NCBI GenBank assembly: GCA_012960135.1
Contig: DUBW01000043.1
Coordinates: 1 to 64,000, forward strand
Direction of reading: 5' to 3'
Source: Methyloprofundus sp.
Lineage (GTDB): Bacteria; Pseudomonadota; Gammaproteobacteria; Methylococcales; Methylomonadaceae
DNA: 64,000 nucleotides
The notes beneath the pieces were generated by a model that was not told the origin of the DNA, searched no databases, and saw only the letters and a list, made by a program, of their open reading frames with translations. Below, in pieces: positions 42,227 through 44,727 of this stretch; position 1 is the first letter of the stretch; each line of letters begins with the position of its first letter. A program made the translations under genes and the position numbers.

Positions 42227-43689
42227 AATATAAAGACTTAAGAGATTTCATTGCTCAACTGGAAAAAAAAGGTGAACTAAGGCGGATTCCCCAGGAAGTG
42301 GATCCGGTACTTGAAATGACCGAAATCTGTGACCGGACCTTAAAGCAAGGTGGTCCTGCCTTATTATTTGAAAACCCTAAAGGGCATAATATTCCGGTAC
42401 TGGCTAATTTATTTGGTACGCCCGACCGCGTGGCGATGGGGATGGGTGAAAACTCGGTTACTGCATTACGCGGGGTGGGTGAATTGCTTTCGCAATTAAA
42501 AGAGCCAGAACCTCCTAAAGGCATGAAAGATGCGATGGATAAAATTCCAGTCTTTAAAAATGTGCTGAATATGGCGCCTAAGCTGGTGAAAAACCCACCT
42601 TGCCAGGAGCTAATCAGGATTGGCGATGAAATTGATCTGGGTCAGTACCCGATACAAACCTGCTGGCCTAATGATGCCGGACCTTTGATTACCTGGCCTT
42701 TAGTAATTACCAAAGGACCCTATAAAGAACGACAAAATCTGGGTATTTATCGCCTGCAAGTGATTGCTAAAAACAAAGTGATTATGCGCTGGCTGGCGCA
42801 CCGGGGAGGAGCTTTAGATTATCGGGAATGGCAGGAAGCACACCCGGGTGAACCGTTTCCTATCTCAGTTGCATTGGGTGCAGATCCAGCAACTATCCTG
42901 GCTGCTGTTACCCCGGTGCCCGATACGCTGTCTGAATATGCCTTTGCAGGCTTATTGCGTGGCAGTAAAACCGAAGTAGCCAAATCGCAAACCAATGACT
43001 TGCAAGTCCCAGCCAGTGCAGAAATTGTGCTGGAGGGATTTCTATATCCAGGAGAAACAGCGCCCGAAGGGCCGTTTGGCGATCATACCGGTTACTATAA
43101 CGAAGTCGATGAGTTTCCGGTTTTTACCATCGAGCGCATAACTCAGCGGCAGGCACCGATTTATCACAGCACCTATACAGGCAAGCCGCCCGATGAGCCT
43201 GCGGTATTAGGCGTTGCTTTAAACGAAGTATTCGTACCGATCCTGCAAAAGCAGTTTCCTGAAATCACCGATTTTTATCTGCCGCCCGAAGGTTGTTCCT
43301 ATCGTATGGCAGTGATTAGTATGAAAAAACAATATGCGGGTCATGCCAAGCGCGTTATGCTTGGAACCTGGTCTTATCTACGGCAGTTTATGTATACCAA
43401 GTTTGTGATTGTTGTCGATGATGATATTGATGTCCATAACTGGCAGGAAGTGATTTGGGCTATTACCACACGAATGGATCCCGCTCGTGACTTAACGATA
43501 TTGGAAAACACGCCGATAGATTATCTGGATTTTGCCTCACCGGTATCCGGTCTGGGATCTAAAGTGGGCTTTGATGCAACCAATAAATGGCCTGGAGAAA
43601 CGACTCGGGAATGGGGGCGTGTTATTTCTATGTCCGATGATGTCGTGAAAAAAGTAGATGAAATGTGGGAAAGCCTAGGAATAATGTAG
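42223..43689 (+). CDS. ubiD: 4-hydroxy-3-polyprenylbenzoate decarboxylase
   Basis: [48 protein letters not shown]. Confidence 0.96.
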
Positions 43690-43728
43690 GTTATGTTATC
43701 TAACGAAGCGTAGGTAACGAACCCGGTG
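43685..43728 (+). repeat. GTAGG-type intergenic hairpin repeat
   Basis: TGTAGGTTATGTTATCTAACGAAGCGTAGGTAACGAACCCGG. Confidence 0.55.
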
Positions 43729-43767
43729 TAACAGAAATGTACTTAGAGGGCGTGGATAAAGTTTCTT

Positions 43768-43913
43768 TCATGCCTATCCTGTTGCTTCCCAAGGCATCCT
43801 CGCGAGCACAATACTATCCCGCCGGGCCATGACTATAGCGCACTCTGAGGGGTGCAGTATGAATGGATGTGCCCCCTCCGGCCCAGTACATTGGGGGCAG
43901 CCGGGTGGACATG
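43768..43913. mobile_element. MITE-like element copy A
   Basis: CATGCCTATCC...GGGTGGACATG ends; flanked by GTTTCTT direct repeats (43761-43767, 43914-43920); strong similarity to 44528-44650. Confidence 0.75.
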
Positions 43914-43971
43914 GTTTCTTCTACCTGATTTGAATCACTGTAAAATGGCTTTGTGGTGTTTTAATCAATAG

Positions 43972-44460
43972 CTATGTAACTGAGCCCAGATAAACGGTAT
44001 GTTCTTGGCTATGCAAGTTAATCAGCAATTCAGCAAAGAAGTTGGGTGAAATAGTCTGTTCAGCTAATTTTTCTACGGGTAACCATTCTACCCCTACCTG
44101 ATGCTTATCTGGATCGGGGCCTGAGCTGGGAATATAGTCTACAGGGGTCTGGCATTGAATTAATACTTCGAGTTGGTGGCGGGTGTAAGGTTTTGGATCT
44201 AGCTTGGGGATAAAAAAATCGGCGATATGTAGCACGTCAAAGGCTTCGACTGCGCTATTGATTTCTTCTAGGCATTCGCGAATCACCGCTTGATGCAAGG
44301 TTTCTCCAGGTTCTAATGCACCGCCAGGTAGGGTGTAGCGTACACCTTCTTGCGGGCTGTCTTTTTTGATTAATAGGACTTTGTTATCCTGAATAATAAC
44401 AGCGCGTACAGTGATGCGGATACCGGATTGTAATTGATCCATTTGTCTAGTTGGAAACAT
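43972..44460 (-). CDS. NUDIX hydrolase
   Basis: Nudix box GGALEPGETLHQAVIRECLEEINSAV. Confidence 0.92.
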   Translation of the reverse strand: MFPTRQMDQLQSGIRITVRAVIIQDNKVLLIKKDSPQEGVRYTLPGGALEPGETLHQAVIRECLEEINSAVEAFDVLHIADFFIPKLDPKPYTRHQLEVLIQCQTPVDYIPSSGPDPDKHQVGVEWLPVEKLAEQTISPNFFAELLINLHSQEHTVYLGSVT

Positions 44461-44467
44461 TAGAGTT

Positions 44468-44516
44468 TGTAGGCTGAGTTAGCTTATCTAGCGTAGCGTA
44501 GATAAGTAACCCGGCA
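44468..44516 (+). repeat. GTAGG-type intergenic hairpin repeat
   Basis: TGTAGGCTGAGTTAGCTTATCTAGCGTAGCGTAGATAAGTAACCCGGCA; arms TTATCTA/TAGATAA. Confidence 0.7.
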
Positions 44517-44527
44517 TATGTTGATAC

Positions 44528-44650
44528 CATGCCTATTCGAGTGCTTCCTGAAGCATCCCGTCGAGCTATGTCTATAGCGTGCTCTGAGGGGCCCAGTATG
44601 AATGGATGCGATCCCGACCCAGTATTTTGGGAGGCAACCGGATAGGCATG
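44528..44650. mobile_element. MITE-like element copy B
   Basis: CATGCCTATTCG...CGGATAGGCATG terminal inverted repeats; flanked by perfect 8-bp direct repeats GTTGATAC (44520-44527, 44651-44658). Confidence 0.8.
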
Positions 44651-44670
44651 GTTGATACTACCAGTAACTT

Positions 44671-44718
44671 GGCGGGTTACGTTTTTTTGCTTCGCTAAAA
44701 AATCTAACCTAACCTACG
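44671..44718 (-). repeat. GTAGG-type intergenic hairpin repeat
   Basis: Minus strand CGTAGGTTAGGTTAGATTTTTTAGCGAAGCAAAAAAACGTAACCCGCC. Confidence 0.75.
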
Positions 44719-44727
44719 AAGGGTGTT

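Follow-up and report, generated by a model that had tools for sequence, protein, structure and literature searches.

The window analyzed here is a 64,000-nucleotide stretch of the Methyloprofundus sp. contig DUBW01000043.1, in which a NUDIX hydrolase gene (43972-44460, minus strand) lies between two short noncoding elements. Element A (43769-43913, 145 bp, plus strand) and element B (44528-44650, 123 bp, plus strand) share the same orientation, start 759 bp apart, and are both intergenic, with neither overlapped by an open reading frame of at least 80 aa. Pairwise comparison showed 78% identity between them across a 99-bp stretch (E 2e-17), and both have CATGCCTATCCGGTTGCYTCCCA-type ends. The left end of A reads CATGCCTATCCTGTTGCTTCCCAAGG, and its right end, CATGTCCACCCGGCTGCC on the other strand, is decayed and strongly diverged (6/23 positions). 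The right end of B is CATGCCTATCCGGTTGCCTCCCA on the other strand, and the terminal inverted ends of B are 83% complementary over 23 bp, with the outermost 12 bases pairing almost perfectly; decay is greater in A than in B. A relaxed end pattern gave three exact matches in the window, all of them ends of A and B, and six matches when 3 mismatches were allowed, compared to 0.05 expected by chance. The first-pass annotation had described two copies of a MITE-like element with common blocks, matched flanks and, in B, matching ends, all of which are present in the sequence. Its coordinates hold for B, and A starts at 43769 rather than 43768, the T at 43768 being part of the flank.

B is bounded by a perfect 8-bp target-site duplication, GTTGATAC, at 44520-44527 and 44651-44658, as had been claimed for its flanks. 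A is bounded by GTTTCTTT on the left (43761-43768) and GTTTCTTC on the right (43914-43921), which match at 7 of 8 positions; the flanks reported earlier as GTTTCTT do match, as an 8-bp duplication with one mismatch rather than as a perfect 7-mer. The probability that 8-bp flanks agree by chance with no more than one mismatch is about 25/65536 (0.0004) per element, and the duplications of A and B are different sequences. That the two copies flank one gene in direct orientation, with 882 bp from the left end of A to the right end of B, could mean that they are the ends of a single, larger composite element with the NUDIX gene as its cargo. We consider this extremely improbable, given that each copy has a duplication of its own, the outer flanks (GTTTCTTT and GTTGATAC) do not match, and relatives that have neither element carry the NUDIX gene in this same position, between ubiD and FKBP.

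We scanned 84,980 species for exact matches to CATGCCTATYCNRKTGYYTCC, which returned 31 loci, and end pairing in these loci together with matches from the same order gave 24 elements, 22 of them beyond A and B. The ends form inverted pairs in the 24 elements examined, of which 20 measure 111-214 bp and 4 measure 1.11-1.19 kb; the other elements with the same ends (about 20) are hosted by Gammaproteobacteria and Desulfobacterota. An 8-bp flanking duplication with at most one mismatch was present in 19/24 elements, without any mismatch in 16, and its sequence was specific to each copy, which agrees with the earlier proposal of a MITE that transposes with a 7-8 bp target duplication. Two Thiocapsa loci with an identical flank were counted once, leaving 18 independent cases. 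The duplication was absent from the remaining 5, including the same-order 1.1-1.2 kb elements G103 and G134; recombination or decay may account for these five. Five loci from the end-pattern scan (L015, L021, L025, L033 and L042) had no partner end and look like chance matches; about 15 chance matches are expected in that scan, as estimated from the degeneracy of the pattern. The plasmid collection, searched in distant mode, and viral contigs, scanned with the end pattern, gave no match.

The duplications of A and B both begin with GTT and are both followed by CTA, and the first-pass annotation had cautioned that these letters, which it read as GTT and CTACC, might be element sequence or target preference. 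We computed base preferences over the 18 independent sites and compared them to random positions in the same loci, using 5,000 random draws. The first base of the duplication was G, or the last base C, in 72% of half-sites compared to 26% at random positions; the second position was T/A in 53% compared to 24%; and the dinucleotide TA lay just outside the duplication in 31% compared to 4%. Not one of the 5,000 draws was as high as the observed value for any of the three, and leaving out A and B hardly changed the figures. These site statistics indicate that the GTT at the start and the CTA after the end reflect a target preference of the whole family and not element sequence.

The autonomous relatives that the first-pass annotation had suggested looking for were found in other genomes. 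Two Thiocystis elements of about 1.19 kb, L020 and L024, carry at both termini the same 23 bp as the right end of B, and they are flanked by the 8-bp duplications GTGGGTTC and GGTGCAAG. L024 (Thiocystis sp.) contains an intact single frame of 416 aa that matches PF12760 Zn_ribbon_IS1595, PF12762 DDE_Tnp_IS1595 (1.5e-31) and the IS1595 transposase model NF033547 (3.4e-48). In L020 (3914-5156, Thiocystis minor), the transposase is split into two overlapping frames of 158 and 261 aa, through either a frameshift or decay. L095, another Thiocystis element, has CATGCCTATCCG ends and the 8-bp duplication GATTGATC. G103 (1193 bp) and G134 (1111 bp) also carry IS1595 transposases between related ends, in genomes of the same order as the window genome, which we take to be Methylococcales from the GTDB placement of Cycloclasticus. 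Given that these ends are common to the 1.2-kb elements with IS1595 transposases, A and B can be assigned to the IS1595-type MITEs. The Sedimenticola element L016 retains sequence from the interior of the Thiocystis element (0/200 shuffles reached its score), and some of the short elements are visibly internal-deletion derivatives, in which such retained sequence is expected.

We did not detect a comparable parent for A and B among the elements compared. When their interior was aligned to the IS1595 elements and the other short elements, nothing exceeded chance: the interior of B reached a best p of about 0.045 over 23 comparisons, and the alignment of its last 52 bp with a Thiodiazotropha element was not significant once the shared end was removed (p 0.22). 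The alignments therefore did not trace the interior to an IS1595 element. The interior of a MITE may be unrelated to any IS element, and descent from one is not required of a MITE. The sole IS1595-type transposase gene found in the genome of A and B (G000:C16:7589-8008) is a pseudogene with two in-frame stops, and its ends are unrelated to those of A and B; an intact partner transposase was not found in this genome, which is 90% complete, so that about 10% may be missing. At the sensitivity of the search, this 2.5-Mb genome contains only the two copies. No copy of A or B was found in the genomes of other members of the genus, and in a class-wide search with A the matches from other genomes were all short and no better than chance.

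B interrupts a GTAG-tagged double-hairpin repeat of about 120 bp and lies within its variable loop: the left arm and part of the loop lie at 44468-44527 (plus strand), and the rest of the loop and the right arm lie at 44659-44719 (plus strand). When the flanks of B were joined with one copy of the duplication, they aligned over their full length to numerous unoccupied copies of the repeat in 17/18 genomes of the genus. The loop of 19 unoccupied copies measures 21-31 bp (mean 26.8, standard deviation 2.7), and that of the host repeat measures 30 bp with one copy of the duplication and 38 bp with both. Because 30 bp falls within the normal range and 38 bp outside it, the second copy is extra, as a duplication should be. 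Neither the ubiD-NUDIX gap nor the NUDIX-FKBP gap holds an element in syntenic relatives of the same genus, wherever these gaps could be read, although the relatives are only about 75-84% identical and their intergenic regions have diverged too far to reveal a nucleotide-exact orthologous empty site. The first-pass annotation had named invariant flanks in all copies, or a lack of empty sites in close relatives, as outcomes that would speak against transposition. What we observed instead was copy-specific duplications, same-genus relatives lacking both insertions and, for B, unoccupied paralogous copies of the repeat.

The GTAG repeat itself is REP/BIME-like, with the form GTAGGCTGGGTTAG...TAACCCAGC, a loop of 21-31 bp, and GCTGGGTTACG...CTAACCCAGCCTAC (loci L147-L166), and it is dispersed through 17/18 genomes of the genus at up to 48 matches per genome. 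The genome of A and B also contains several IS200-like Y1 transposase genes, one of them long and uninterrupted (C48:2673-3011), which could be the partner of this repeat. To the left of A, at 43686-43726, lies a decayed single relative of the repeat, which places both MITEs in or beside such repeats.

A GTAG-type repeat to the left of both copies, together with the GTT that begins both flanks and the CTA that continues both on the right, is what would be seen if A and B had come from segmental duplication of one stretch comprising the element and its flanks, with the matched flanks being part of the repeat. The flanks beyond the elements do not align, however, the spacing from repeat to element is about 42 bp compared to 13 bp, and there is no second repeat arm to the right of A. 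The common letters are accounted for by the target preference of the family, and the differing duplications of A and B, together with the 19 elements that have copy-specific duplications, contradict this origin, which we judge to be very unlikely.

We also considered that A and B could be conserved structured RNAs or attachment sites, such as a riboswitch, a small RNA or an attC-like site, rather than transposons. The fold of B is a single long hairpin (-51.1 kcal/mol, z -3.9), and the interiors of A and B are more alike than the ends of A. The inverted ends of B account for its strong fold, however, and A folds no better than shuffled sequence (z 0.32). An Rfam search of A and B returned nothing but a chance snoRNA match, same-genus relatives have no copies, and the flanks of A and B are direct repeats and not the inverted core sites of attC, all of which leaves a structured RNA or attachment site with slightly less credence still than segmental duplication. 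We saw no sign of a retained function in the folding, in the Rfam search or in the relatives, which lack the insertions.

Collectively, our findings indicate, with a probability of roughly 95%, that A and B are nonautonomous MITEs of an IS1595-family group with CATGCCTATCCGGTTG-type terminal inverted repeats, which an IS1595-type DDE transposase supplied in trans would have inserted in two separate events, and which are now most likely fixed relics. The sequence itself shows the ends and duplications, the link to the family by way of common ends, the target preference and the absence from relatives, and from these we infer that an IS1595 transposase moved A and B. Such a transposase would recognize the ~23-bp ends of A and B in trans and join them to target DNA that is cut in a staggered fashion, at weakly palindromic sites of the form (TA)GTTNNAAC(TA), which would leave the 8-bp target duplication; B would have entered the loop of the older GTAG-tagged palindromic repeat in this way. 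Weighing against the IS1595-MITE account are the 7/8 duplication and decayed right end of A, the two copies in the genome, which is low for a MITE, the interior without a match to IS1595 elements, and the broken IS1595 gene of the same genome, which lacks these ends. Given that both copies are diverged and the genome shows no intact partner transposase, we infer that A and B are probably immobile. Most likely, A and B were inserted separately in an ancestor that then had the partner transposase; the partner was later lost and the copies slowly decayed.

In summary, two anonymous repeats can now be assigned by their ends, target rule, partner transposase family and empty-site test, and B provides a case of a MITE inserted within another dispersed repeat. 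It is conceivable, though we hold it as somewhat less than an even chance, that the elements with CATGCCTATCCGGTT ends make up an IS1595 group not yet described, with miniature members (111-214 bp) that are spread across Gammaproteobacteria and Desulfobacterota, among them co-resident symbionts of a single deep-sea mussel, and that often lie in genomes where no autonomous partner can be detected. A literature search for the end sequence returned unrelated matches only. One 142-bp element of the group occurs in two copies that are 100% identical (L014 1620-1761 and L030 506-647), on contigs filed under a Cycloclasticus symbiont and a sulfur-oxidizing symbiont of the mussel Bathymodiolus heckerae. 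The L030 copy has the perfect duplication AAACATAC and the L014 copy has none, and their identity reflects either recent transfer between co-symbionts or mis-binned contigs.

A and B are genuine but ordinary mobile elements of a kind already described, and general understanding is unchanged, given that IS1595-derived MITEs with 8-bp duplications have been reported (PMC3852290). Published members of the IS1595 family (PF12762/PF12760) usually yield 8-bp duplications, and they share with the group of A and B both this length and an AT-rich target (PMC8101967; PMC12561309). The 1.2-kb relatives with common ends resemble the family further in carrying a single transposase gene with a Zn-ribbon and an ISXO2-like DDE domain, whereas A and B are devoid of genes. 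In the group of A and B the ends start with CATGCC, unlike the GGGGCTGTACTAGA ends of ISApl4 of the IS1016 group (PMC12561309). Judged by tabulated dimensions, the IS1595-derived ISHwa6 MITE of Haloquadratum walsbyi (165 bp, 7 copies, 25-bp inverted repeats and 8-bp direct repeats; PMC3852290) is nearly the same as A and B in size and in the lengths of its inverted repeat and duplication, although its host is archaeal. MITEPye1 of Paracoccus yeei is related to IS1182 (PMC11578231) and so belongs to another IS family, but it resembles A and B in its low copy number (1-3 per chromosome), intergenic position, long hairpin and presumed mobilization in trans.
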